From assembly GCF_000271665.2 (NCBI RefSeq), contig NZ_CP010978.1:2448501-2512500 (forward strand): DNA of 64,000 nucleotides, read 5' to 3'. Below, piece after piece: positions 20,919 through 39,873 of the stretch. Every line of letters begins with the position of its first letter. Position 1 is the stretch's first letter. The DNA is from Pelosinus fermentans JBW45 (lineage in GTDB: Bacteria; Bacillota; Negativicutes; DSM-13327). The notes beneath the pieces were generated by a model. It was not told the origin of the DNA. It saw nothing but the letters and a program-made list of their open reading frames with translations, and searched no databases. The position numbers and the translations under genes are program-made.

Positions 20919-21104
20919 ATGCCATCCAAGCAAAACCCAGAACTGCTGGCAGCTATGAGGCATGAAAAAAGACTTCACTTTGCATATGACAGTCTAGATA
21001 TTATATCAGAAGTCGCAAGAGGAATTGAATTATTAAGATCTGCTGGTATATTGATCCAGTACCAGCAACGGGAAAACAGCGATTATGGGAGTGGGAGGGG
21101 ATCA
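20919..21104 (+). pseudogene. chimeric ORF ending in an ASCH tail (cassette C)
   Basis: The frame opens NPELLAAMRHEKRLHFAYDS, a helical sequence of unknown origin, and then runs out of frame over bases that encode the ASCH C-terminus (DPVPATGKQRLWEWEG) in the next frame. It is a deletion junction between two phage genes. Confidence 0.45.
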
Positions 21105-21326
21105 ATGACACTAAGTAATGATCTTATACAACAGATTAAAAAGGCGAAAGACCAGCTAGATTGCCTCGAGTTTGAGAACGTAGATTTTATCATACAAAAC
21201 GGTGAAGTCACCCGAGTCGATATAGGCAGAGTATTCGTCTGGAGAAAAAAGAATAATTGGCTGACCGACGAACGGAAGACGACACTACCTGGTATTGCTA
21301 GGAGTGTCGGCATTTTATATTTGTGA
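21105..21326 (+). pseudogene. YezD/DUF2292-like protein, frameshifted tail (cassette C)
   Basis: MTLSNDLIQQIKKAKDQLDC, then VDFIIQNGEVTRVDI. One base is missing compared with the copy at 37354, so the conserved RQSIRPEKKE end is replaced by about 25 foreign residues. RBS GGAGGGG. The IIQNGEVTRVD core fits the small DUF2292 (YezD) fold. Confidence 0.55.
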
Positions 21327-21338
21327 GGGTAGAGGATA

Positions 21339-21500
21339 TGGATAAGGAACAAATTATTAAGCTAGCAGCTGAAGCGGCCGTAAGCGCGGCTATGAATTAC
21401 CTTGCACAGCAGAGGCTGAAGGAAAAGAAATCACGTCATGATAAACGGCTGAGGAATACGAAGTTATTGCTGGATAACTACAGCTTACTGCAAGATCATT
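21339..21500 (+). pseudogene. ArpU/RinA-like regulator, N-terminal fragment (cassette C)
   Basis: MDKEQIIKLAAEAAVSAAMN, then DKRLRNTKLLLDNYSLLQDH. At about 21500 a deletion fuses it to the Cys/His-rich gene. The DNA-binding C-terminus is lost. Confidence 0.7.
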
Positions 21501-21633
21501 GCGTCCAAAATGTCATCATGAGAGTGAGAAAGATTGGCATAAATGCCCATGGTGTGATCATGATTTCCATCATGACTGTAAGTGTCATCAATGTAGTCAT
21601 GACTCTGTTGATATTATCGCTGTCAGGCGTCCT
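21499..21633 (+). pseudogene. Cys/His-rich protein, internally deleted (cassette C)
   Basis: RPKCHHESEKDWHKCPWCDH, then DFHHDCKCHQC and a divergent end. Compared with the intact gene at 38280 it lacks the start and one whole internal repeat, as expected from recombination between the repeated HKCPxCDHxFHHDC units. Confidence 0.6.
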
Positions 21634-21728
21634 TTTAGGGCGCTTTTCTTTATGCAAAAAAAGAAACCACGTCTTGGTGGAAACGTGGTTTGCAAGAAGA
21701 AACGGTTTGGCGGATTAGTTTAGAAAAA

Positions 21729-21848
21729 TTAACAACCAGAGGAACAATCGTTATTATCGAAGCAGAAAAGTAACAAGATAATAATTATAATAATAATGCA
21801 ACCGGAACCGCCGAAGCCATTGCGACCGCCTCCAAAACCTAAACCCAT
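21729..21848 (-). CDS. 39-residue Gly-rich/poly-Ile membrane peptide (cassette C)
   Basis: Same length and reading as at 11241, with a few silent or conservative changes (LLLFCFDNNDCSSGC end). RBS AAAGGAGG and the AACCACGT terminator hairpin (about 21664-21691) are retained even though all neighbouring cassette genes are broken. Confidence 0.7.
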   Translation of the reverse strand: MGLGFGGGRNGFGGSGCIIIIIIILLLFCFDNNDCSSGC

Positions 21849-22301
21849 AAGTATTCCTCCTTTATCGTCAATTAATATATTGTATGATAGCTAAACAGAA
21901 AAGGTGAGTATCATGTAAAGATAAACGTTCGCCAGATGAAATAAAGATTGATAGCTGTTGCTAATCTTACGTAGAAATTACCTTTAGAAAAGAATATTTT
22001 TTGAATTTATAATAAACCTTAGTAAAAGCCTGCATTGCGGGTCTTTTTTTATATGAAAATGAGATGATACAGTGAAATGCTATACAGACTGCGCTTACAA
22101 CCAAGATAAAGAATCGCTCGCGTCACTGTCCACTTAATCAGGCTATATGTAAAGATAGGACTGTTTTAAGGCGTGATGCTAAGAGGTTAAATAAACAATT
22201 TCATTAAAGCAGGCCACAAGTATATATTGCAAACCCCTTGACTTTAAAGGCGTAGTAAGTGATTAATACAACAACGCTAAACGAAAAAGGGGATAATGCA
22301 G

Positions 22302-22433
22302 ATGGATAGAAGAGTTAAAGATTTAATGGGACATATGATGTATGGCATCTTCGATAGTATAAATAATGCTGATATTATTGTGAAGCTTTCCGATAGTAGT
22401 GAATATCAAGTAGATATTACCAAGAGTAAATAA
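22302..22433 (+). CDS. 43-residue conserved phage protein (cassette C)
   Basis: MDRRVKDLMGHMMYGIFDSI, NNADIIVKLSDSSEYQ and a VDITKSK tail. It lacks the TKDGGFI segment by an in-frame deletion between short TTAT repeats, yet the frame stays open. RBS AAAGGGG. A truncated phage frame (MSEFAISGVPV, from 22453) follows and is cut by the intron region. Confidence 0.5.
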   Translation: MDRRVKDLMGHMMYGIFDSINNADIIVKLSDSSEYQVDITKSK

Positions 22434-22749
22434 AATATAAAAAGGAGAATGTATGAGTGAATTTGCTATATCTGGCGTGCCAGTACATTGCGCTTACAAT
22501 GTGGAAATCCGAGAAGCCTAAGACTGGGATAACTGCTAGAGTAAGAAAGCTATGGAGAACGTAAAGTGAATCACCGTAGGAATCGTTACGCTGGAGGAAG
22601 CGAAATAGGCTGAAACGCTTCGATCAAAATGGTGAGGAGTCAAGCAACGGCGAACTGTCAAAACAATGCGAATGGATAAAGAACTCCCGGTTTAAAGGTG
22701 GCTCCTAAGGCTTTTACAATATATATCATGCGGAATTGCCAAGGCAACA

Positions 22750-24155
22750 GTGAAGGGCGACAAGAACAAAGTCAAAAGATTACAATACTTACTAACCCAT
22801 TCCTTTTGTGCAAAGTCCTATGCGGTAAAGAAAGTAACTTCGAATAAGGGGAAAAACACTTCTGGCATAGACAAAAAGCTATGGTCAACATCATCTTCAA
22901 AAATGAAAGCGGTACTAACACTCTCAGATAAGCACTACAAAGCAAAACCCTTTAGAAGAGTTTACATTGAAAAGAAAGGAAAAAATAAGAAACGACCGCT
23001 GGGAATTCCAACTATGTACGACAGAGCCATGCAGACACTGTATGCACTGGCACTCGAACCAGTAGCCGAAACGACAGGAGATCACATTTCTTTTGGTTTT
23101 CGTAAGGAAGAAGTGCTAAAGATGCCTGTGAACAGATATTTTGTGTATTAACAAGGAAATGTTCCCCTATCTGGATATTAGAAGGAGATATCAAAGGCTG
23201 CTTTGACAACATCAACCATGCTTGGCTACAAGACAATATACCAATGGATAAAAGAATTATGAAGCAGTTTTTGAAATCGGGATTTATATATCAAGGAAAC
23301 CTCTTTCCTACAGTCTCAGGTTCACCACAAGGAGGAGCTATATCCAGTCTTTATGCAAATATGACGCTAGATGGTCTTGAAAAATTAATTCAGGATAAAT
23401 ACCATCGGAATTCAAAGGGTAAAATAGAAAACCACTATCGAGCAAAAGCCAAAGTAAATTTGGTGCGATATGCGCATGACTTTATCATTACCGCAAATAC
23501 AAGAGAAATAGCGGAAGAACTCAAACAGATTGTCGGTCAATTCCTTAAAAATCGGGGATTAACTTTATCTGAAGAAAAGACAAGGATTACGCATATAGAC
23601 GATGAACTCGACTTTCTTGGCTGGACATTTCGAAAATTCAAGGGAAAATTAATTGTCAAACCATCAAAGGACTCCATCAAAACCCTGACAAAGAAATGTG
23701 CTACTATCATTCTGAAAGAAGGAAAAGCAGATAGGCAATCAGAACTCATCCGAAGGTTAAATCAAGTGATTAGAGGGTGGACAAACTATCACAAACATGT
23801 TGTGGCAAGCCAAGCCTTTTCTTGCGTCAATAACACACTATATCTTTTATTACAACAATGGGCAAAACACCGGCACCCAAACAAAAGTAAATGGTGGAGA
23901 TTAAACAACTATTGGTATGAAAAGAATGGGAAGAGATGGTTGTTCATGGCAGATGAGTACAGCCTTATAAACCTGAGAAGAATAAATATCATCCGTCACC
24001 CTAAATTGCAGATTTCTAAAAATCCCTTTATACATGAAGAGTATTTTGTGAAAAGGAAAATGAAACTAAAATCACTCGTTGCCGCCAGAAATGGTGAAGA
24101 AATGCTTGAGCCGTATGAGCGGGAAACTCTCACGTACGGTTGTGCGTCCAGATAA
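22750..24155 (+). pseudogene. group II intron 1 reverse transcriptase/maturase, broken
   Basis: The first part (22750-23151) carries RT domains 0-1: KKVTSNKGKNTSGIDKK, KKRPLGIPTMYDRAMQTLYA. A frameshift near 23100 follows GFRK; the next frame gives ILEGDIKGCFDNINHAWLQD (first catalytic Asp). From 23244: GSPQGGAISSLYANM, the maturase domain (RRLNQVIRGWTNYHKHV) and a terminal HNH-less end. The YADD box is VRYAHDFIITAN, so one catalytic aspartate has become histidine. Dead by both criteria. Confidence 0.85.
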
Positions 24156-25415
24156 GGCTGGCGTGTTCAGCAGGAGTTAGTCCTGCCGGGGTAAAAGTCA
24201 GGACCCCGTAGCTTGGATAGCAGGGTGGCGGGAAACCAAGACTCTGAAGCCTATCGACAACCGTTTCCGAGGGAAACGTGCGAGTGATCGGGCCGTAATG
24301 AAGATGAACGTAAATGTGGCCTCGAAAGTGAAGAAATCCGAAGGTCGAGCCCGCAACCGTGAGGGTGAAGGTAGCATGGGTAACCGAATTCTGACTGATA
24401 CGGTTATACCACTTTGGCGGGGTGGAAGCGACGGCACGGTAACAAGGACATGCTAAGCAACTGGAGAAGCCCTCCTCGTCCCGGTGCGAAATCACTGGAG
24501 CAAGGTAGGCCTTATAACCGGAAAACCCGGGAAGTGGGCTGAAGGCGAGAGGGTGGCGGATGGGTTCGTACTAGCTAAGAAGCCAGGTAATGCTGGTGGA
24601 GCGAAGGGGCCCTGCGGTTTGTAAGATTCTCGACAATAAGGGAGGCAAGGACGAGATGATAAAGGCGTCCATCAGTTTGCAGGACCTGAGGAGAGGAATA
24701 TACGTCAAGGCGAAGGCTGAACCGTCCTGGCGATTCTGGGGGTTGTACGTCCATATATGCAAAAAGGAAACGTTACGCGAAGCGTACAGATTGGCTAAGA
24801 ATAATAACGGTGCCCCTTGGTATTGATGGAGTAACATTTGAGGCTATTGAAGCGCAAAGCGTAGAGGCTTTTCTTGAGGAAATACAGGACGAACTTATTG
24901 GGCGCACCTATCGACCACTACGAGCGACACGGCAGGAAATACCAAAGGATGGAGGAAAAGTGCGCGTCCTATCAATACCTGCAATCCGTGACCGAGTGGT
25001 TCAGGGTGCACTCAAGTTTATATTGGAGCCGATCTTCGAGGCGGATTTCCAACCGGGGTCGTATGGGTATCGACCGAAACGTACTGCTCATGAGCGGTGC
25101 ACAGGGTAGCAACAGCGATTGTCCAGAGGAAAACTCGGGTTATAGATTTGGATTTACGCGCCTATTTTGATACTGTGCGGCATCATTTGCTTCTTGACAA
25201 AATAGCGTGCCGGATTAATGACCAGGACGTCATGCATCTAATAAAACTGATGCTGACGGCAGCAGGTAAGCAAGGAGTACCACAAGGCAGGGTGATTTCG
25301 CCGTTGCTCAGTAACATCTATCTCACAGAGGTAGATCGGATGCTGGAACGAGCTAAAGAAGTCACACGCAGTGGGCGATACACCTACGTTGAATATGCAA
25401 GATTTGCTGACGATC

Positions 25416-27282
25416 GTGCGCCACGAAGGAGTGTCCAAGTAGCGTAGCTACTTGAAGGCAGCCATGCTGTACAGATGATGGTGGTAGGTCCACCGAAATC
25501 GCCATACAGGTGGAGGTTTCAAACTACCTTAAGGTGCTGTGGCCAAAATCCATGGTATTGAGCGTTAAGGAAAAGGCAGTGATAAAACTGTCAAGTGCGT
25601 ATTAAGGAGATGAATGAACAAATGAACCACTTACGAAAATGTCGATAGCGTAGAGATTCCATCAAAACCAGGGGGTAGTCGTTAATCTGGGATAAGTCTA
25701 GGGGAAACCTGTTTACTGCCTAGACGGTGGGCGGCATAAAGGTGGCATGAACTTAATACAGGCGTCTGTACGGAACGTGGGAACCCACGGGCTGATGTTA
25801 AGGGAGTATATCAAGCGGAAGAACCGCAAGATAAGAGTACCAATGCAGTCATGGGGGCAGATTGGGTTGTAGTAGTGATGAAGTTTCTGTAATGGGAATG
25901 GAGCGAAGAACCCGAATTATTCAGTTTCAAGAATAAGTCAACTTTGAAAGGAGGAGGAACTTATGCAAGAAACAAAGCCATACAGTATTTCCAAAAGAGC
26001 AGTAATTACTGCTTATGAAAGAGTGAAAGCAAATAAGGGAACCTATGGAGTGGATGAGCAATCTATTGAGGATTTTGAGAGAAAGCTAAATAATAATCTC
26101 TATAAGATTTGGAATAGAATGTCGTCAGGAAGTTATTTCCCGAAACCTGTAAAGGCAGTAGCAATTCCAAAGAAGAATGGTGGAACTCGTATTTTAGGAA
26201 TACCAACCGTAGAGGACAGGATAGCGCAGATGGTAGCGAAGTTATACTTTGAGCCATGCGTGGAACCGATATTTTACGAAGATTCCTATGGATACAGGCC
26301 GAATAAATCAGCAATACAGGCAATAGAAGTAACAAGGAGAAGGTGTTGGAGAAAAGACTGGGTTTTAGAGTTTGATATAAAGGGTCTATTTGATAACATC
26401 AGACATGATTACTTAATAGAAATGGTAAAACACCAAACAAAAGAAGAATGGATTCTTCTGTATGTACAAAGGTGGTTGACAGCACCGTTTCAAATGGAGG
26501 ATGGAACGATTGTTCTAAGAACTTCAGGAACGCCACAAGGTGGGGTAATCAGTCCTGTACTTGCCAATCTATTTTTACACTATGTATTTGATGATTATAT
26601 GACGAAAGAGTTTCCAGCAATACCGTGGGCAAGATATGCGGATGATGGAATTGCACACTGTGTGTCTCTTAAACAAGCGAAATATTTGCAACGCAGACTA
26701 CAGGAACGATTTGAGTGTTTTGGATTAGAATTAAATTTGGATAAGACAAGAATTGTATATTGTAAAGATGATGACCGAATAGGAAATCATGAATACACCT
26801 CTTTTGATTTTCTGGGATATACATTCAGACCAAGACATGCAAAGAATAAATGTGGAAAGTTCTTCACTAACTTTCTGCCAGCAATGGGAGAAAAGGCGAA
26901 GAAATCCATAAGAAAAGTAGTTAGAAAGTGGAAGTTGCAGTTGAAACCGGATAAGGACTTATTGGACATAGCAAATATGTTCAATAGCCAAATACAGGGA
27001 TGGATTAATTACTACACGCATTTTTATAAATCAGAGATATATGAAGTATTAAGATATATTAATGGACGTCTTGTTTACTGGGTTCGCAAGAAATACAAGA
27101 ATCGAAAATCAAGACAAAGAGCTGAACATTGGCTTGGAGAAATAGCAAAGCGTGATAGAAAACTGTTTGCACACTGGAAATTTGGGATACTGCCAACGGC
27201 TGGATAATGGGAGCTGTATGAGCTGAGAGGTTCACGTACAGTTCTGAGAGAGACTTAGGGGGAAGTTCCCTAGGTCTACTTG
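25416..27282 (+). mobile_element. group II intron 3 (innermost), inserted at the catalytic box of the intron 2 RT
   Basis: Begins GTGCGCCACGAAGGAG at 25416, right after GCTGACGATC that encodes FADD of the host RT. Domain V (GAGCTGTATGAGCTGAGAGG, about 27209) is followed by a short hairpin (ACTTAGGGGGAAG-TTCCCTAGGT). The 3-prime boundary is uncertain by a few bases: an AC end lies at 27279, but restoring the host frame would need a slightly later end. Confidence 0.82.
25963..27207 (+). CDS. ltrA: group II intron reverse transcriptase/maturase, intact
   Basis: 414 residues. It splices its host intron as maturase and copies it into DNA during retrohoming. RT motifs in order: NKGTYGVDEQSIEDF (about 27), RILGIPTVEDRIAQM (about 75), YGYRPNKSAIQAI, LEFDIKGLFDNIRHD (catalytic Asp), TSGTPQGGVISPVLAN, WARYADDGIAHC (YADD intact, about 225), FDFLGYTFRPR. 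The maturase domain X is SQIQGWINYYTHFYKSEIYE, with a basic end. RBS AAAGGAGGAGG. There is no HNH endonuclease domain. It is the only undamaged RT of the three introns, so it could in principle serve as the active element. Confidence 0.93.
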   Translation: MQETKPYSISKRAVITAYERVKANKGTYGVDEQSIEDFERKLNNNLYKIWNRMSSGSYFPKPVKAVAIPKKNGGTRILGIPTVEDRIAQMVAKLYFEPCVEPIFYEDSYGYRPNKSAIQAIEVTRRRCWRKDWVLEFDIKGLFDNIRHDYLIEMVKHQTKEEWILLYVQRWLTAPFQMEDGTIVLRTSGTPQGGVISPVLANLFLHYVFDDYMTKEFPAIPWARYADDGIAHCVSLKQAKYLQRRLQERFECFGLELNLDKTRIVYCKDDDRIGNHEYTSFDFLGYTFRPRHAKNKCGKFFTNFLPAMGEKAKKSIRKVVRKWKLQLKPDKDLLDIANMFNSQIQGWINYYTHFYKSEIYEVLRYINGRLVYWVRKKYKNRKSRQRAEHWLGEIAKRDRKLFAHWKFGILPTAG

Positions 27283-28054
27283 CTTGGTGGTGCTGATTGA
27301 TGCATATCCACGCCATGACTGGTTGCTGAAGGCGGTAAGTAAGCGACTACAGGAAGAGTTTGCCAAACTACAAGTTGAAGTAAATGAAGAGAAGAGTCGC
27401 ACTGTAGACTTGGGATGCAAGGAAAGTTTTGGCTTTCTAGGATTTGACTTTCGTCAGCTTCGGAGCATCAAGAGCAGTGCATGGCGAGCGCACTATACGC
27501 CAAAGCTGAAAAGCGAACGGCGCTGCTACAGAAACTCAAAGATGTATTTCGACGATACCAGTCGCAACCGATAAATCGGGTGGTACAGTTAATAAATCCG
27601 ATACTTCGGGGGTGGGTGAATTATTTTGCTGTTGGACACTCCAGTGAGTGCTTCAGCTTCATCAAAGACTGGGTGGAAAAGAAGATACGTCGCCATATGG
27701 GGCGATCTAGGAATCAGCAGGGCTTCGGTTGGAAAAGGTGGAGTAGGCATTGGCTATACAACGAACTCAAGCTATTTAATGGATATTGAGTTCACCGTAG
27801 GTCAGAGACGAAAGCGTTACCAACTTGATAGGTCTCATAAACCTTAACGAGAAACAAACCGGAGAGCGTAGTGCGGGAAATCCGCACGCTGCGTTCGACG
27901 TGGCGGAGGCTGGAAACGTGACTAAGATAGCCGGACTGAGTTTCATCGTGAAAACGATGAAACTTTTCGCTGGGAAACTTATGGGATGCGCGCCAGTCTT
28001 CGACTCTACCTTAGACGAGGGAAAGGGAGCAATTCCTTTTCTTTAGTCAATTAC

Positions 28055-28137
28055 ACGTCTAATCCGTACAACAGGCGATTAGAAGAATTGGGTGTTCTCG
28101 GCAGCCACTCTCGCAAAGCTAACTGCCTTGCCAGGGG
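28055..28137 (+). pseudogene. IS3-family OrfB fragment, 3-prime exon of intron 1
   Basis: YTSNPYNRRLEELGVLGSHS then RKANCLA. It matches the IS3-type segment QYTNPxFKxL...SMSRRGNCWDNA that follows the HSDQG catalytic motif. Intron 1 ends exactly before it. The matching 5-prime exon is not found upstream of the intron. Confidence 0.65.
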
Positions 28138-30139: not shown

Positions 30140-30271
30140 ATGTATATTCATATAGCCTGGTTATATCTAGCAGCTGTGATTGGCTGCCTAGTTGGAATAT
30201 TGATAGCAGCAATGTGTGCAGCTGCAAAAAGTGGAGATTGGGAATGTAGATTTTATCATACAAAACGGTGA
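30140..30271 (+). CDS. small single-span phage membrane protein, fused tail (cassette D)
   Basis: MYIHIAWLYLAAVIGCLVGI then LIAAMCAAAKSGD, resembling the short DUF3789-type phage proteins. GGGGAG RBS. After KSGD a deletion joins it out of frame to the YezD-like gene, adding about 10 foreign residues. Confidence 0.5.
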   Translation: MYIHIAWLYLAAVIGCLVGILIAAMCAAAKSGDWECRFYHTKR

Positions 30272-30322
30272 AGTCACCCGAGTCGACATACGGCAGAGTA
30301 TTCGTCCGGAGAAAAAAGAATA
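30244..30322 (+). pseudogene. YezD/DUF2292-like fragment (cassette D)
   Basis: NVDFIIQNGEVTRVDIRQSI then RPEKKE and stop: the C-terminal half of the gene intact at 37354. The GCCGACACT/AGTGTCGGC terminator follows at about 30345-30380. Confidence 0.6.
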
Positions 30323-30404
30323 ATTGGCTGACCGACGAACGGAAGCCGACACTGCCTGGGATTACTAGGAGTGTCGGCATTTTATATTTGTTGGGGTAGA
30401 GGAT

Positions 30405-30935
30405 ATGGATAAGGAATTAATTATTAAACTAGCAGCAGAAGCGGCCGTAAGCGCGGCTATGAATTATCTTGCACAGCAAAGTCAGAAAGAAAAGAAATCA
30501 CGTCATGATAAACGGCTGAGGAATACGAAGTTGCTTTTAAAACACTACCCACTTTTGAAAGAGCATTGCAAGGAATCTGTGTTTGATTTACCTAAGGCTA
30601 TAACGACTGAGAGGGTTGTCGATGTACTTGACTCTCTTGAGCGTTATAGTAGCGATATTTATATTGAGTCTATTAAAAAGAGCGTGACCAGAACGTATAT
30701 CATCCTAGCTCACATAGACCAGATGTTAAGATTATATAAGGTTTACTGTGAGACATCTGGAAAGGCTGAGGATGAGCGGAGGTATCGCATTTTACAGGCA
30801 GTTTATCTCGATGACGAAAAAATATCGAGCATATGTGAGCGTGAAGGAATTGATGAAAGCACTTACTATCGCGACATTCGTGAGGGGTGCGGAAAGCTAA
30901 GTGCTTTAATCTTCAGCATTGACGGTATCTCCTAG
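30405..30935 (+). CDS. ArpU/RinA-like phage transcriptional regulator (only intact copy)
   Basis: 176 residues. N-terminal helix-rich part (MDKELIIKLAAEAAVSAAMN, KKSRHDKRLRNTKLLLKHYP), central ESIKKSVTRTYIILAHIDQM, and a C-terminal sigma-region-4-like HTH: RRYRILQAVYLDDEKISSIC, EREGIDESTYYRDIREGCGK. Proteins of this type drive late phage genes. A start with AGAGGATATGG is weakly marked. Fragments of it at 9911, 15276, 21339 and 37593 show the same gene in four other cassettes. Confidence 0.78.
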   Translation: MDKELIIKLAAEAAVSAAMNYLAQQSQKEKKSRHDKRLRNTKLLLKHYPLLKEHCKESVFDLPKAITTERVVDVLDSLERYSSDIYIESIKKSVTRTYIILAHIDQMLRLYKVYCETSGKAEDERRYRILQAVYLDDEKISSICEREGIDESTYYRDIREGCGKLSALIFSIDGIS

Positions 30936-31038
30936 ATGCGAAAAACATGACAGTGACATGCGAGTTTTATCGTGGTAATATGATAGTGTGAAATATATAT
31001 AAATATTTATCATGATTAAGAAACATTGTATGATGAAA

Positions 31039-31062
31039 AAGGGCCATCGGCTCTTTTTTTAC
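31039..31062 (+). terminator. intrinsic terminator
   Basis: AGGGCC and GGCTCT around ATC, then TTTTTT. Confidence 0.7.
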
Positions 31063-31131
31063 ATAAAATAAGCATATAATTATTTATTCGCTCATAACAA
31101 TTTATTAAAGTATTATGGGCGGAGGGGTAAT

Positions 31132-31464
31132 ATGGAACTTATTGTTAGTACTTTATTAGCAGTATTTGCTTATATGGATGGCTTGAGAACAAAAAAACAA
31201 TTATTAGCAGCAATTAATTCAAACTTTGTAGATCGCGTAGAAGAAGCGATCAATGATTTACAAACACAAGATCAACAATTACTAAAAAGTATTCAGCAAG
31301 AATTAATTCAAAAGGGACAACTTGAGTTAGCTGAAAAAATAAATGCTATTCTAAGTGATGAATTTAAAGTATCTCCAGAATCATTCGTTATCCTTAAATC
31401 ATATTTAAATAGTGAACAGTTATATAAACTAGCTATGGGCAACAGCTCACTACCGCCCGAATAG
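31132..31464 (+). CDS. hypothetical protein with N-terminal membrane anchor
   Basis: 110 residues. A short hydrophobic start (MELIVSTLLAVFAYMDGL) is followed by a long amphipathic helix (INSNFVDRVEEAINDLQTQD then QQLLKSIQQELIQKGQLEL). GGAGGGG RBS. A CGCCC/GGGCG terminator overlaps the last codons and runs to about 31478. No family is recognised. It lies downstream of the intact ArpU-like gene, as an accessory phage or host gene. Confidence 0.6.
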   Translation: MELIVSTLLAVFAYMDGLRTKKQLLAAINSNFVDRVEEAINDLQTQDQQLLKSIQQELIQKGQLELAEKINAILSDEFKVSPESFVILKSYLNSEQLYKLAMGNSSLPPE

Positions 31465-31711
31465 GGCGATTTTTATTATCAGAGTCAATTGAAGACAATA
31501 TGCAGGGAGGAGTTATATACAAGCGTAAAAATGATAATATTGAGCATCCTTCGGGTACTTTTCTTATATATGAAACAGGCTGCTACTAATTAATTTATGA
31601 TTAGCAAATTACCTTTGAAATACCTTTAGAAAAAATATTTTTTGAATTTATAATAAACCTTAGTGAAAGCTTGCATTGCGGGTCTTTTTTATATAAAAAA
31701 AGAGGTGATAC

Positions 31712-31800
31712 AGTGAAAGCTATACAGACTGTGCATACAATCAAGGCCATGAATGCACGCGCGATACAACTCATTTAATACAGGCTGAAATGCAGCAAGT
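31712..31800 (+). pseudogene. Cys-rich small protein, frameshifted (cassette D)
   Basis: GTGAAAGCTATACAGACTGT is the start of the 39035 gene with one base missing, so the CYTDCAYNQGHEC frame is lost. A GCCTGC-like/GCGGGT terminator lies just upstream (about 31670-31690), as in the other copies. Confidence 0.6.
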
Positions 31801-34140: not shown

Positions 34141-34499
34141 TCGACTAAGAAAAAGAGATTGCTCCCTTTTCCTCGTCTAAGAACCGTACGTGAGAGTTTC
34201 CCGCTCATACGGCTCAAGCATTTCTTAACCCTTTCTGGCGGCAAACAGTGATTTTAAGTTCATCTTTCTTTTTAGAAAATACGCTTCATGAATGAAGGGA
34301 TTTTTAGAAATCTGTAATTTAGGATGCCGGATGATATTTATCCTTCTTAGATTTATGAGGCTGTGTTCACCCGACATGAACAGCCATGGCTTACCATTTT
34401 TTTCATGCCAATATTTGTTTAATCGCCACCATGAATTTTTGTTGGGGTGTCGATGTTTTGCCCATTGTTGCAATAAAAGATAGAGTGTGTTGTTGATAT
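34141..34499 (-). mobile_element. group II intron, 3-prime fragment (same family as intron 1)
   Basis: Encodes the maturase end (INNTLYLLLQQWAKHRHP, then PWLFMSGEHSLINLRRINII and RHPKLQISKNPFIHEAYF), followed by an uninterrupted domain V (GAGCCGTATGAGCGGGAAAC ... CACGTACGGTTCTTAGACGA). It serves as the reference that dates and locates the intron 2 insertion. The 5-prime end is cut at about 34499 by the SbcC-like fragment. Confidence 0.8.
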
Positions 34500-34504
34500 G
34501 GGAA

Positions 34505-34963
34505 AAGCTTGACTTGTCAAAGAAAGTAGTCCGGTACCAGACTCTCGTGAAAGCCTTTAGTAGAGATGGAATCCCTGCTCTTATTATTGAAAATGCGGTA
34601 CCTGAACTCGAGCGTATTGCCAATGATATTCTTGGTCAAATGTCTGGCGGTAAGAACTATCCCAAATTTGAAACGCAAAAGGAACTGAAAAGCCGGAGCG
34701 GTTTGGCTGAAACCTTAGATATCATTGTTGGTGATTGGGCTGGTGAGCGCATCTATGAGACGTATAGCGGTGGAGAGCAGCTGCGCATAGACTTTGCCAT
34801 TCGTTTTGCTTTAGCGGAACTGTTAGCCAGGCGGGCGGGTTCTAAAGTGGACTGGCTTACGATCGATGGGGGGTTTGGGAGTCAATCGGATGAGTTTTTA
34901 CCTATGGTTATCGATGCGGTGAAGCAGGTTGCTAGTCGGTTTGGTGTAGTGCTTGTCAGATAG
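34505..34963 (+). pseudogene. SbcC/Rad50-like ATPase, C-terminal fragment
   Basis: FSRDGIPALIIENAVPELER, then YSGGEQLRIDFAIRFALAEL (ABC signature as SGGEQ), WLTIDGGFGSQSDEF (Walker B region with D-loop) and FGVVLVR. This is the C-terminal ATP-binding lobe of an SMC-like nuclease subunit. The N-terminal Walker A lobe and the coiled coil are absent, and the very end is joined to an AbrB fragment. Confidence 0.75.
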
Positions 34964-37183: not shown

Positions 37184-37351
37184 ATGAGAAAGAAATGGTG
37201 TATTAATTGTAAGCACGTAGGTGAGTCGATAAGTAGTGGATGCGAAAGATTAGAAGAATGTGGACCTAAAGTTAAGTATTGGGAAAAAAAGATAATAAAT
37301 CCAGTAGAGTGCAGCCTCAAAATGGGAGGATCAACATCTTCAAGGAGATAA
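37184..37351 (+). CDS. small Cys-containing phage protein
   Basis: 55 residues: MRKKWCINCKHVGESISSGC, ERLEECGPKVKYWEKK and a divergent end. Four cysteines (CxxC, C, C) suggest a small metal site. There is no strong RBS. The paralogue scrap at 9.63 kb is joined to the ASCH start. The last 20 codons overlap the RBS of the next gene, so a frameshift may have altered the tail. Confidence 0.45.
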   Translation: MRKKWCINCKHVGESISSGCERLEECGPKVKYWEKKIINPVECSLKMGGSTSSRR

Positions 37352-37353
37352 GG

Positions 37354-37506
37354 ATGACATTAAGCAATGATCTTATACAGCAAATTAACAACTCTAAAGA
37401 CCAGCTAGATTCCCTCAAAATTGGGAATCTAGATTTTATCATACAAAACGGTGAAGTCACCCGAGTCGATATACGGCAGAGTATTCGTCCGGAGAAAAAA
37501 GAATAA
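37354..37506 (+). CDS. YezD/DUF2292-like small protein (intact copy)
   Basis: 50 residues: MTLSNDLIQQINNSKDQLDS, LKIGNLDFIIQNGEVTRVDI, ending RQSIRPEKKE. RBS AAGGAGATAAGG. The helix plus two-strand layout with V.I.Q.G.V..I fits the DUF2292/YezD family (tentative). The copies at 21105 and 30244 are broken. Confidence 0.6.
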   Translation: MTLSNDLIQQINNSKDQLDSLKIGNLDFIIQNGEVTRVDIRQSIRPEKKE

Positions 37507-37527
37507 TTGGCTGACCGACGAACGGAA

Positions 37528-37572
37528 GCCGACACTACCTGGGATTACTAGGAGTGTCGGCATTTTATATTT
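37528..37572 (+). terminator. intrinsic terminator after the YezD-like gene
   Basis: GCCGACACT and AGTGTCGGC form the stem, followed by ATTTTATATTT. The same hairpin follows the copies at 21.3 and 30.35 kb. Confidence 0.7.
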
Positions 37573-37592
37573 AATTTGTGGGGGATGATGAC

Positions 37593-38118
37593 ATGGATAA
37601 GGAATTAATTATTAAACTAGCAGCTGAAGCGGCCGTAATGCAACAATGAGTTATCTTGCACAGCAAAGTCAGAAAGAAAAGAACACGTCATGATAAAAGA
37701 TTGAGGAATACGAAGTTATTGCTGGATAATTACAGCTTATTGCAAGATCATTGCGCGAATGCAGTTTATGACAAGCATCAAATCATTGAGGCTAATAATG
37801 TCGTTGACGTGCTTGATTCAATTGAAAACTACGATAAAGACATGTATATTGAGTCAATCAAGAAAAGCACTATAAGAACAAAGATTATATTAAGCCATAT
37901 TGACGAAATGCTTGAGCTATATAAAGCCTATTGTGAAAAGTCAAAGAGAGAAGAAAATAATAGGCGCTATCGTATTTGAAGAGATTTTTATTTTGATGAT
38001 TATAGCATTTTAGATATTGTTAAGCGTGAAAAAATTGACGAGAGGACATATTATCGTGACATGAAAGACACACGTGAAAAGCTTAGCGCCTTGATTTTCG
38101 GGATTGATGGGCTTCATA
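37593..38118 (+). pseudogene. ArpU/RinA-like regulator, decayed (cassette E)
   Basis: MDKELIIKLAAEAAV then a frameshift, HDKRLRNTKLLLDNYSLLQD, VVDVLDSIENYDKDMYIESI, and a TGA at about 37977. The HTH tail (ILDIVKREKIDERTYYRDMK) is readable after the stop. It diverges more from the 30405 copy than cassette A does. A CCGC/GCGG terminator lies at 38177-38208. Confidence 0.7.
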
Positions 38119-38279
38119 GATATGTCAGTTTGGCCGTGGTAATATGGTATTGTGAAGTAAATATAACGAACTCCAAACCGCTTACAAATGTAGGCGGTTC
38201 TTTTTTTGATCAAATATTTGGAGCCATTTCACTAAATTTACATATTATATATAGAATAATGTGAAAAAGAGGTGGAAAA

Positions 38280-38546
38280 ATGAATAGCTTTGAATCCGAT
38301 CATGATTGTAAGTGCCACATTGAGATACATCACCAATGTCCAAAATGTCATCATGAGTGTGAGAAAGATTGGCATAAATGCCCTAAGTGTGATCATAACT
38401 TTCATCATGACTGTGATTGGCATGATGAATGTGAGTGTCCTAAATGTCATAACAAATGTCACAATGATTGTCATAAGTGCCCTTGGTGTGATCACGATTT
38501 TCATCATGACTGTAAGTGTCATCAATGTAATAATGACTGCTGTTGA
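38280..38546 (+). CDS. Cys/His-rich repeat protein
   Basis: 88 residues with about 20 Cys and 20 His. Repeating units: CPKCHHECEKDWHKCPKCDH, NFHHDCDWHDECECPKCHNK and CHNDCHKCPWCDHDFHHDC. The CPxC-x-H and HHDC steps occur with near regular spacing, so the chain probably wraps several zinc or other metal ions. RBS GAGGTGG about 7 bases before the ATG; a GCGTCC/GGGCGC terminator follows at 38560-38583. No family is recognised. The shortened relative is at 21499. Confidence 0.65.
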   Translation: MNSFESDHDCKCHIEIHHQCPKCHHECEKDWHKCPKCDHNFHHDCDWHDECECPKCHNKCHNDCHKCPWCDHDFHHDCKCHQCNNDCC

Positions 38547-38597
38547 TATTATCGTTGTCAAGCGTCCTTTTAGGGCGCTTTTCTTATGCAAAAAAAA

Positions 38598-38625
38598 TAA
38601 CCACGTTTTGGTGGAAACGTGGTTG
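38598..38625 (-). terminator. terminator of the 39-residue gene (cassette E)
   Basis: AACCACGTTT and AAACGTGGTT; on the minus strand followed by ATTTTTTTTG. Convergent with the Cys/His-rich gene's terminator. Confidence 0.7.
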
Positions 38626-38660
38626 CAAGAGTATACGGTTTGGCGGGTTAGTTTTAAAAA

Positions 38661-38780
38661 TTAACAATCAGAGGAACAATCGTTATTATCGAAGCAGAAA
38701 AATAATAAGATGATAATTATAATAATAATGCAGCCGGAACCGCCGAAGCCATTACGACCGCCTCCAAAGCCAAAACCCAT
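38661..38780 (-). CDS. 39-residue Gly-rich/poly-Ile membrane peptide (cassette E)
   Basis: MGFGFGGGRNGFGGSGC, the Ile/Leu span, then FFCFDNNDCSSDC. Third intact copy, with a Leu-to-Phe and a Gly-to-Asp change relative to 11241. RBS AAAGGAGG retained. Confidence 0.7.
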   Translation of the reverse strand: MGFGFGGGRNGFGGSGCIIIIIIILLFFCFDNNDCSSDC

Positions 38781-39034
38781 AAGTATATCCTCCTTTATCG
38801 CCAATTAATATATTGTATGATAGTTAAATAGAGAGGTGAGTATCATGAAAAGATAAACGGTCGTCGGATAAAATATAGATTGGTAGCTGTTGCTAATTTT
38901 ACGTAAAAATAACCTTTGGAATACCTTTGGATACCTTTGAGTACCTTTGGAAAAGAATATTTCTTGAATTTATAATAAACCTTAGTTCAGCCTGCATTGC
39001 GGGCCTTTTTTTATATGAAAAATGAGGTGATACA

Positions 39035-39220
39035 GTGAAATGCTATACAGATTGTGCATACAATCAAGGCCATGAATGCACGCGAGATACAACTCATTTG
39101 ATACAGGCTAAATGTAAAGATAAGACTGTTTTGAGATGTGATACGAAAAAGTTTAATACAGATAAAGAATCAAAGAAGATAGCAAGTATACATTCAACCC
39201 CCTTGACTTTAAAGGCGTAG
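39035..39220 (+). CDS. Cys-rich 61-residue protein (intact copy)
   Basis: From a GTG with GAGGTGAT 5 bases upstream: KCYTDCAYNQGHECTRDTTH, LIQAKCKDKTVLRCDTKKFN and a Lys/Ser tail. The six cysteines, including CxxxC and CAYNxxxxC, resemble DUF1540-type small metal-binding proteins. Other copies are at 16296 (altered tail), 11514, 22073 and 31712 (broken). The gene following it in every cassette is the 45-residue MDRRVKDLM protein. Confidence 0.62.
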   Translation: MKCYTDCAYNQGHECTRDTTHLIQAKCKDKTVLRCDTKKFNTDKESKKIASIHSTPLTLKA

Positions 39221-39265
39221 TAAGTGATTAATGTAACAACGCTAAACGAAAAGGGGATAAAGCAG

Positions 39266-39391
39266 ATGGATAGAAGAGTTAAAGATTTAATGGGACATAT
39301 GATGTATGGCATTTTCGATAGTATCAATAATGCTGATATTATAACTAAAGATGGCGGCTTTATTGTGAAGCTTTCCGATGGAAGTGAATAT
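39266..39391 (+). pseudogene. 45-residue phage protein, fused to tail-fibre gene (cassette E)
   Basis: MDRRVKDLMGHMMYGIFDSI, NNADIITKDGGFIVKLSDGS, EY, then the sequence changes into tail-fibre DNA out of frame, so the frame continues for 70 meaningless codons. RBS AAAGGGG. Confidence 0.6.
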
Positions 39392-39873
39392 CAAATGCTT
39401 CAACCTCTACAACCTATGGAGTATCAAGTGCAAGTAACTATGGTCATTCAATGGCATCTAGTGCCACACCTTTGGTTAATGGTACTGCAACCGCTGGTGC
39501 AGATAATGGTAAATTTGCTCGTGAAGGGCATATACACCCCACAGACACCACACGCGCTGCACTTGCCTCTCCCACATTTACGGGAATTCCGGCAGCTCCA
39601 ACTGCTACAGTAGGCACTAACACGACGCAAATTGCGACAACGGCATTTGTACAGGCAAACAAAGGTGCTGGTACAAATGTGTGGTTATCAAGCGAATATA
39701 CATACACCTCTAACACTCCATTAATAGTTAGCCATGGTTTGACATTAACACCGCTTAATTGCAGAGTTGGATTAGTTGTTGCAATACCAGATTTTAATGA
39801 TCGTAAAAAAGCTTTACAATCTTATTTTGACAAGCTAAACGATATTCTTGTATTACCAAAATTATCGGCATAG
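39389..39873 (+). pseudogene. phage tail-fibre protein, C-terminal fragment
   Basis: NASTSTTYGVSSASNYGHSM, FAREGHIHPTDTTRAALASP, TFTGIPAAPTATVGTNTTQI and ATTAFVQ are textbook tail-fibre repeats. The receptor-binding end (YTSNTPLIVSHGLTLTPLNC) follows. The last 30 residues (DFNDRKKALQSYFDKL) look like they come from another gene joined by deletion. The N-terminal baseplate-attachment part is absent. An internal ATG at 39451 is not a natural start. Confidence 0.75.

Follow-up and report, generated by a model that had tools for sequence, protein, structure and literature searches.

Nested group II introns have so far been treated as rare accidents, and the locus described here raises the question of whether such nesting can be directed. 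The locus lies in Pelosinus fermentans JBW45, a Firmicute of the Negativicutes whose genome is a single contig of 5.38 Mb. The stretch analysed, referred to below as the window, comprises 64,000 nucleotides (nt) (G000:C1:2448501-2512500) and carries three group II introns, with intron 3 inside intron 2 and intron 2 inside intron 1; uninterrupted relatives are known for both junctions. The guides of the two inner introns match two parts that no mobile group II intron can do without, namely domain V (D5) of the ribozyme and the Asp-Asp codons in the active site of the reverse transcriptase (RT). Both sites are specified by guides and recur across genomes, and the nesting is directed, not accidental. 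The nest is very probably a stack of site-specific retroelements, whose inner introns come from lineages that habitually target other group II introns via their guides.

A base-exact nest of three introns

The preliminary description of this DNA had proposed a base-exact nest three introns deep. Rfam domains, uninterrupted relatives and the multiple copies of intron 3 bear this out. Signals for D5 and domain VI (D6) were placed by Rfam at 27209-27284 (55 bits), 27862-27936 (33 bits) and 24106-24153 (31 bits, interrupted), that is, at all three points where a D5 had been expected (27209, 27852 and 24108), and two complete domain I (D1) cores were recognised, RF02003 in intron 2 and RF01999 in intron 3. 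One group II intron within another, the arrangement that defines a twintron, is found at both junctions. The nest itself stood, and its boundaries were refined to 25416-27284 for intron 3, 27211-27244 for the D5 of intron 3 and 27864-27896 for the D5 of intron 2. An assembly chimera is unlikely, since the genome is a single contig and each junction type is seen independently elsewhere.

The ends of intron 2 are fixed, exactly where they had first been put (24142-28009), by a full-length copy in Pelosinus fermentans UBA6563 (G004), a member of the same genus, and by two copies in Sporomusa sp. KB1. The insertion point is one base before the 3' end of the D5 of intron 1. All four copies start after a D5 ending in ...CGGTT or ...CAGTT, and the last D5 base, C, and then D6 follow downstream. 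The D5 covariance model (R1, see below) gave the same score of 47.1 bits to the interrupted D5 (24108-24141) and to an uninterrupted one (34182-34215), which agrees with the proposed position inside D5. The relative at 34.2 kb that had been taken for an empty site does have an uninterrupted D5-D6 joint, as does a relative in G005, and removal of intron 2 would join 24141 to 28010 as GGTT-CTTAGACG. The G004 copy has no intron 3, is 94.8% identical and colinear over spliced positions 1-1999, and resides in another host intron. Both Sporomusa copies have an intact RT of 457 amino acids (aa), and the ribozyme of the window intron 2 is 97.5% identical to them; relative to the G004 and Sporomusa copies, the window RT has frameshifting indels near 24817, 25092 and 27508. 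Intron 2 occurs once in its own genome. A D1 core, D5, D6, an RT open reading frame (ORF) and exact ends identify it as a group II intron, with a non-canonical D5 (RF00029 score of 33 bits, below the gathering threshold of 40) and a long D6.

Five copies of intron 3 in the genome are identical over the full length, and a 99% identical copy occurs in a congener (G003). Since the flanks of the identical copies differ, the ends of intron 3 are fixed to the base; the T that follows all copies would have to be exonic for the reading frames to be restored. Removal of intron 3, which would join 25415 to 27285 as GACGATC-TGGTGG, gives an in-frame RFADD-LVVLIDAYPRHDW, in accordance with its proposed location in the FADD box of the intron 2 RT. 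Intron 3 starts with GTGCG, its D1 (RF01999) and D5 (RF00029) score above gathering, and its protein scores above the TIGR04416 cutoff. Its 3' end departs from the AY rule: all copies end in ...TACTTGCT before the exonic T, and the relatives end in GCC or ACC, their own 3' ends not being independently fixed. Since all the other defining features are present, the assignment stands, and intron 3 is a group II intron with an altered 3' terminus. It is the only intact intron of the nest. Its ORF is whole and the RTs of introns 1 and 2 are frameshifted, so that the innermost RT is, as had been noticed, the sole intact one.

Intron 1 is a dead, unspliceable relic, a remnant and not a complete ribozyme with both splice sites. 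Its homology to the full-length Sporomusa relative begins at 22496, which is 109 nt into that intron; the first 109 nt, with the 5' splice site, and about 325 nt of internal sequence near 22733 (domains II to IV/RT N-terminus) are missing. The RT frame is broken near 23110, and YAHD replaces YADD with the loss of one catalytic Asp. The 3' end lies at about 28051, directly before a transposase relic (YTSNPYNRRLEELGVLGSHSRKANCL). The Sporomusa relative opens with GTGCGACAAGAAG after a transposase 5' exon (...HSDRGFQ/; here and below a slash marks the insertion point) and stops before /YTSRGF. Its joined exons match Pfam rve at 1e-15, and the 26-aa transposase piece in the window gave no Pfam match. 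Because the 5' splice site and the internal segment are gone, intron 1 cannot splice. The three-step, inside-out splicing that had been envisaged is therefore not open to it, and splicing would be limited to the two inner introns at most.

Relatives of intron 2 insert into domain V

One genome per GTDB species was searched with the intron 2 RT, which yielded 78 loci, and the 5' ends of the relatives were mapped with a profile of the first 170 nt. Most of the 5' flanks so mapped terminate in D5. The D5 model, made from nine uninterrupted D5s, was used to search 39 sources. At 21 loci its match ended at base -1 of an intron of the intron 2 family (E 2.6e-13 to 2e-4), and the same model gave no D5 match abutting the intron at any of the 11 loci labelled non-D5. 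D5-inserted members were found in Bacillota, Pseudomonadota, Chlorobiota, Thermodesulfobacteriota, Acidobacteriota and Bacteroidota; two acidobacterial cases (L072/L075, GTACGGAA) were called by eye and not by the D5 model.

For the guide search, the 5' exon of each of 34 relatives was slid along the aligned domain I and base pairing was scored. One block, facing exon positions -6 to -1, scored 12.94, compared with 6.2 for the next block and a shuffle maximum of 6.6 (0 of 100 above). This block is exon-binding sequence 1 (EBS1); in the window it reads AACCGT (24355-24360), antisense to the sequence ACGGTT of the 3' D5 strand. The signals of EBS1 and EBS2 persisted with the 11 non-D5 members alone, in which re-matched guide/target pairs such as GGGTCT/AGACCC, TGTGTG/CACACA and TGGTTC/GAACCA were seen; TTCCGT/ACGGAA is a further pair in the family. 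Another EBS1 candidate, AACCG in a hairpin at 24258, was dropped after it proved to be a covarying stem. Intron 2 thus combines insertion one base before the end of the host D5 with an EBS1 antisense to the D5 strand. In a tree of the ribozyme 5' region, from which the EBS1 columns were excluded, intron 2 of the window groups with its G004 and Sporomusa copies and with introns of Burkholderiaceae in one clade (99/98), every classified member of which is D5-inserted.

The D5 of intron 2 itself (CTGCGTTC) pairs with its own EBS1 at 3 of 6 positions and scores 1, versus 15 for the host D5. The idea that this special D5 is an adaptation for self-protection was dropped, the non-canonical D5 being common to members that do not home to D5.

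Some other members of the family deserve mention. In a Rokubacteria metagenome-assembled genome, a relative lies directly after AACACGGGTTCGAATCC, which resembles the T arm of a tRNA gene (L083 1-18). In a Megaira endosymbiont, three relatives (L096, L097 and L098) lie in similar coding sequences ending in AATATTT or AGTACTT; therefore, another branch of the family may home into a multicopy gene. At L052, L062, L065 and L067 the host D6 beyond the inserted intron ends in ...CTCGACTCTAC, as the family's own end does, and some hosts would therefore be distant members of the intron 2 family.

Relatives of intron 3 insert into the Asp-Asp codons

The copies of intron 3 (five in its own genome and one in the congener) represent five unique sites, at four of which the intron interrupts Y/FADD codons, each time in a different group II RT. 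The window site is RFADD/LVVLIDAYP in the RT of intron 2; the others are RYADD/FLIG (L019 and L020), RYADD/FVCFF (L017) and RYADD/MLLFA (G003). The insertion phase is constant (GAY N/NN, between bases 1 and 2 of the codon after the second Asp), and the frame is restored. Two relatives of intron 3, A in the same genome (72% to intron 3) and L123 in G146, likewise lie in YADD. The pattern YADD/GTGCGCCACGAA was found at 6 sites in 380 genomes and at none in the reversed control.

With nine relatives, the EBS1 of this family gave a covariation of 12.89 versus a shuffle maximum of 7.9. In the guide AGTCGT, positions 2 and 5 are G and face the degenerate third codon bases, where G pairs with C or U; in L123, the guide carries A at position 5 and the target the corresponding T. 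Guide/target pairs among the relatives include AGTCAT/ATGATT, GACAGG/CCTGTC and CACCAC/GTGGTG. Intron 3, whose EBS1 is antisense to the Asp-Asp codons, therefore lies behind the second of these codons in group II RTs at all its sites but one, L018. There, intron 3 lies antisense in a gene for an OmpR-type response regulator, with the receiver and the C-terminal DNA-binding parts on either side, and should break the regulator.

Weighing of the explanations

If an intron-rich genome gathered nests at random, the insertion positions would be meaningless. Several group II introns are present in this genome; however, D5 abuts the intron start at 21 loci, intron 3 keeps a constant phase in Y/FADD codons at four of five unique sites, and the covariation of guides with targets already contradicts chance, so that random insertion is scarcely credible. 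We also regard as highly improbable a hairpin targeting of the group IIC type, in which intron 2 would recognise any stem-loop and D5 would merely be one of them. The D5 stem-loop does lie immediately upstream of the insertion point, but the insertion is within the helix, one base before its end and not after it. Moreover, EBS1 and EBS2 both pair with sequence, relatives at sites lacking a visible hairpin have matched guides, and intron 2 matches RF02003, with no class C features found. Assignment to class C (terminator-like hairpin, minimal EBS1, no EBS2) was rejected for intron 2, in which EBS2 covaries and the insertion is inside the helix.

The outer introns might also have been mobilised together with the inner ones, and the repeated nests would then reflect co-transfer and not repeated homing of the inner introns. 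Indeed, L019 and L020 share an identical twintron over 4,280 nt, including a 46-nt repeat upstream, and no copy of it without the inner intron was seen. Nevertheless, the remaining sites of intron 3 are in different RTs, and intron 2 occupies different host introns and does not always carry intron 3; we consider such a composite unit improbable. Finally, the whole array could have decayed to a fossil of past homing, in which nothing splices or moves. Intron 1 without its 5' splice site and internal segment, the frameshifted RTs of introns 1 and 2 and the single copy of intron 2 all fit that view, which we hold to be somewhat unlikely: intron 3 is complete with an intact RT, its five identical copies point to very recent movement, and the intron 2 ribozyme is nearly the same as that of the Sporomusa copies with their intact RT.

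Several points weigh against reading the nest as a stack of site-specific retroelements. On the tree as a whole, the D5-targeting label changes about seven times; D5 targeting is a recurrent preference, gained or lost repeatedly, and not a single stable trait. The non-canonical D5 of intron 2 seems at best a lucky pre-condition and not a specific adaptation. L044 and L124 are the same locus and hence not independent, and L124 was rejected as an extra genome; L019 and L020 are near-duplicate hosts and likewise not independent. The copy at L018 (3729-5597; G000:C1:1163728-1165596) is outside any RT, in a look-alike sequence (agatttgctggcgact). Pairing of the intron 3 EBS1 with its target is imperfect in the window (score 9 of a maximum of 15) and in G003 (score 7), the sample of its family is small (nine sequences), and no EBS2 was located for intron 3, the first candidates having failed to covary. 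Splicing and mobility, moreover, are what we infer from the analysis.

Features of the nest and its surroundings

The features are collected in Table 1. The 5' side of the nest adjoins one copy of a repeat, the homology ending at 22409. Repeats at 21100-22410, 30170-31790 and 37350-39400 of the window occur in two to three copies with 60-98% identity per piece and contain short paralogous ORFs.

Table 1. Coordinates of the nested introns and associated features in the window
Feature	Position	Strand	Evidence
Intron 1, 5' portion of relic	22496..24141	+	Alignment to full-length Sporomusa sp. KB1 relative (L134/L043; intron start L134:1392)
Intron 1 RT remnant (RVT_N, RVT_1, GIIM), two frames, catalytic box YAHD	22750..24155	+	Sequence RYAHDFIITAN
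Intron 1 D5 minus last base (C at 28010)	24108..24141	+	D5 model R1 47.1 bits, E 2e-11; Rfam RF00029 31 bits
Intron 2, 5' part	24142..25415	+	RF02003 117 bits; full-length uninterrupted copies, one in G004 and two in Sporomusa KB1
Intron 2 domain I	24168..24303	+	RF02003, 117 bits
Intron 2 EBS2 (GTGAAG)	24328..24333	+	Covariation with positions -14..-9, equalled by 0 of 100 shuffles
Intron 2 EBS1 (AACCGT), complement of ACGGTT in D5 3' strand	24355..24360	+	Covariation, 34 relatives
Intron 2 RT upstream of intron 3	24810..25415	+	Frameshifts near 24817 and 25092; L043 homologue is an intact 457-aa ORF
Intron 3, complete, 1869 nt	25416..27284	+	Five identical genome copies; 99% copy in G003
Intron 3 domain I core	25480..25596	+	RF01999 109.5 bits
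Intron 3 EBS1 (AGTCGT), complement of Asp-Asp codons AYGAYN	25677..25682	+	Covariation, 9 relatives
Intron 3 RT/maturase, 414 aa, intact (YADD, maturase domain)	25963..27207	+	TIGR04416 1.9e-122; PF00078, PF08388
Intron 3 D5	27211..27244	+	R1 50.9 bits; RF00029 54.9 bits
Intron 2, 3' part: RT C-terminus (frameshift near 27508), D5, D6	27285..28009	+	Homology, Pfam
Intron 2 own D5, non-canonical 3' strand (CTGCGTTC)	27864..27896	+	RF00029 33 bits; no R1 match; family comparison
Intron 1, last D5 base and D6 (3' end)	28010..28051	+	Relatives at 34.2 kb, G005 L040, Sporomusa L043
3' exon of intron 1, IS3-like transposase relic (YTSNPYNRRLEELGVLGSHSRKANCL)	28052..28128	+	Sequence; joined exons of Sporomusa homologue
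5'-truncated intron 1 relative, uninterrupted D5-D6, empty site for intron 2	34182..34507	-	D5 model, sequence comparison

Further nests

Another pile-up in the same genome (L017, G000:C1:3797000-3815000) consists of an intron B (RF02005) with intron 3 in its YADD box and an intron C just past its D5; intron C lies two bases past D5, with the host D6 downstream. Next to this pile-up are a transposase-like gene and, in another YADD box, a truncated copy of intron A; everything lies within a gene region of the filamentous-haemagglutinin/contact-inhibition type. In G318 and in Sporomusa, a member of the intron 2 family interrupts the D5 of an intron-3-like intron. In Sporomusa sp. KB1, an RF02005-type intron (L043 1014-2911) lies in the RT motif A codons (GCFD/NI) of the intron 1 homologue, and these codons are a third conserved intron part that serves as a landing site. 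From these nests (A, L123, C, G318 and L043) it follows that several kinds of group II introns land in conserved parts of other group II introns.

The outer intron of the two near-duplicate intron 3 hosts lies in a dispersed repeat with a core of about 46 bp and conserved flanks (L019 2028-2073, L023-L028). The repeat has at least eight copies and is empty at six other places.

Comparison with known systems

RmInt1-like and other group II introns home into insertion sequences (ISs). The intron 1 family resembles them in lying in the catalytic region of IS transposase genes; unlike in those introns, the host IS is a different one and intron 1 itself is a relic.

Nests of up to five introns, formed by repeated site-specific homing into group II introns, are reported in summaries on Methanosarcina acetivorans (Dai and Zimmerly 2003, as summarised in PMC4424553 and PMC2882425). 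The host of the present nest is a Firmicute, as had been stated, but the emphasis that the preliminary description laid on a depth of three as unusual is weakened by these nests of up to five (PMC4424553). The Methanosarcina case, as summarised, is similar to ours in its repeated site-specific homing into other group II introns, with no effect on a host gene; it differs in being archaeal, and the two summaries are silent on D5 targeting (PMC4424553, PMC2882425).

The twintrons of Thermosynechococcus elongatus (PMC2882425) share with our case inner introns that are identical and lie at one conserved site in diverged outer introns, having spread by targeting another mobile element. Unlike here, those inner introns are ORF-less, use the protein of the outer intron, are closely related to it and are confined to one genome, and their site, flanked by the first and second start codons of the outer ORF, is not in a catalytic motif (PMC2882425). 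In the Euglena psbF twintron an intron lies in domain V (Copertino and Hallick 1991, as cited in PMC8393795); as described there, it is a single resident case in a chloroplast, unlike the mobile D5-guided lineage. The Tr.e.I7/I8 twintron of Trichodesmium erythraeum is bacterial like the present nest, and its sequential splicing was demonstrated in vivo (PMC4649490). It has two levels and lies in a protein-coding gene that is expressed and spliced (PMC4649490), whereas our nest is known from sequence and its outer member is broken.

Hence earlier work had already revealed twintrons in Euglena, cyanobacteria and archaea, among them an archaeal nest five deep, as well as an insertion in D5, and the comparison suggests that what is new is directed, guide-specified nesting. 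The open literature searched, which did not include the key archaeal original, yielded no account of RNA-guided lineages that specialise in D5 or YADD, and priority for homing into the RT site is uncertain. In two surveys, the pipelines excluded or missed nested introns (PMC4028801, PMC8919778); such exclusion would explain the gap in the literature on guided nesting.

Proposed mechanism and significance

The sequences establish the nest and its exact junctions; they also show that both types of site recur in other genomes and that guides covary with their targets. We propose that an IS transposase gene would have been invaded first, by intron 1. Reverse splicing would then have placed intron 2 in intron 1, one base short of the 3' end of D5, at a site set by EBS1 AACCGT and EBS2 GTGAAG, both antisense to the conserved D5 3' strand; intron 3 would have reverse-spliced into the RT gene of intron 2, its site being set by EBS1 AGTCGT, which is antisense to the Asp-Asp codons. 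Going by established group II intron biology, the route was probably reverse splicing into DNA followed by reverse transcription. For intron 3, this route may be set beside the absence of an endonuclease-domain match in its protein. Insertion by retrohoming, precise splicing of intron 3 and possibly of intron 2, and current mobility of intron 3 are what we infer. The interrupted D5 would be unable to form until intron 2 leaves, and the interrupted YADD would be untranslatable until intron 3 leaves; precise excision of the inner intron would leave the host intron unharmed, with its D5 or RT usable again. For the dead intron 1 of the window these consequences have ceased to matter. Since the RT frame is restored across the junction, the hosts at L019 and L020 are good candidates for a working case.

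Two reasons, which do not exclude each other, may account for the choice of sites. An unchanging guide would find most targets if directed at the best-conserved sequence of a widespread element, and sloppy deletion could not remove an insertion from an essential site. That insertion at an essential site resists loss has already been stated for twintrons (PMC4649490).

It is rather probable that bacteria harbour dedicated hyperparasites of group II introns, namely a broadly distributed lineage with guides antisense to D5, the active centre of the ribozyme, and a lineage whose guide recognises the Asp-Asp codons of the RT active site and has G opposite the degenerate bases. If so, the near-universal targets would let these lineages invade almost any group II intron that they encounter, and the splicing or mobility of the host intron would depend on excision of the invader: splicing or the RT of the host should stay off until the invader leaves. 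The families offer naturally occurring pairs of guide and target that have changed jointly, and a testable case of parasites of selfish RNAs. The finding may thus bear on how group II introns spread, on how they are kept in check and on the origin of layered introns.

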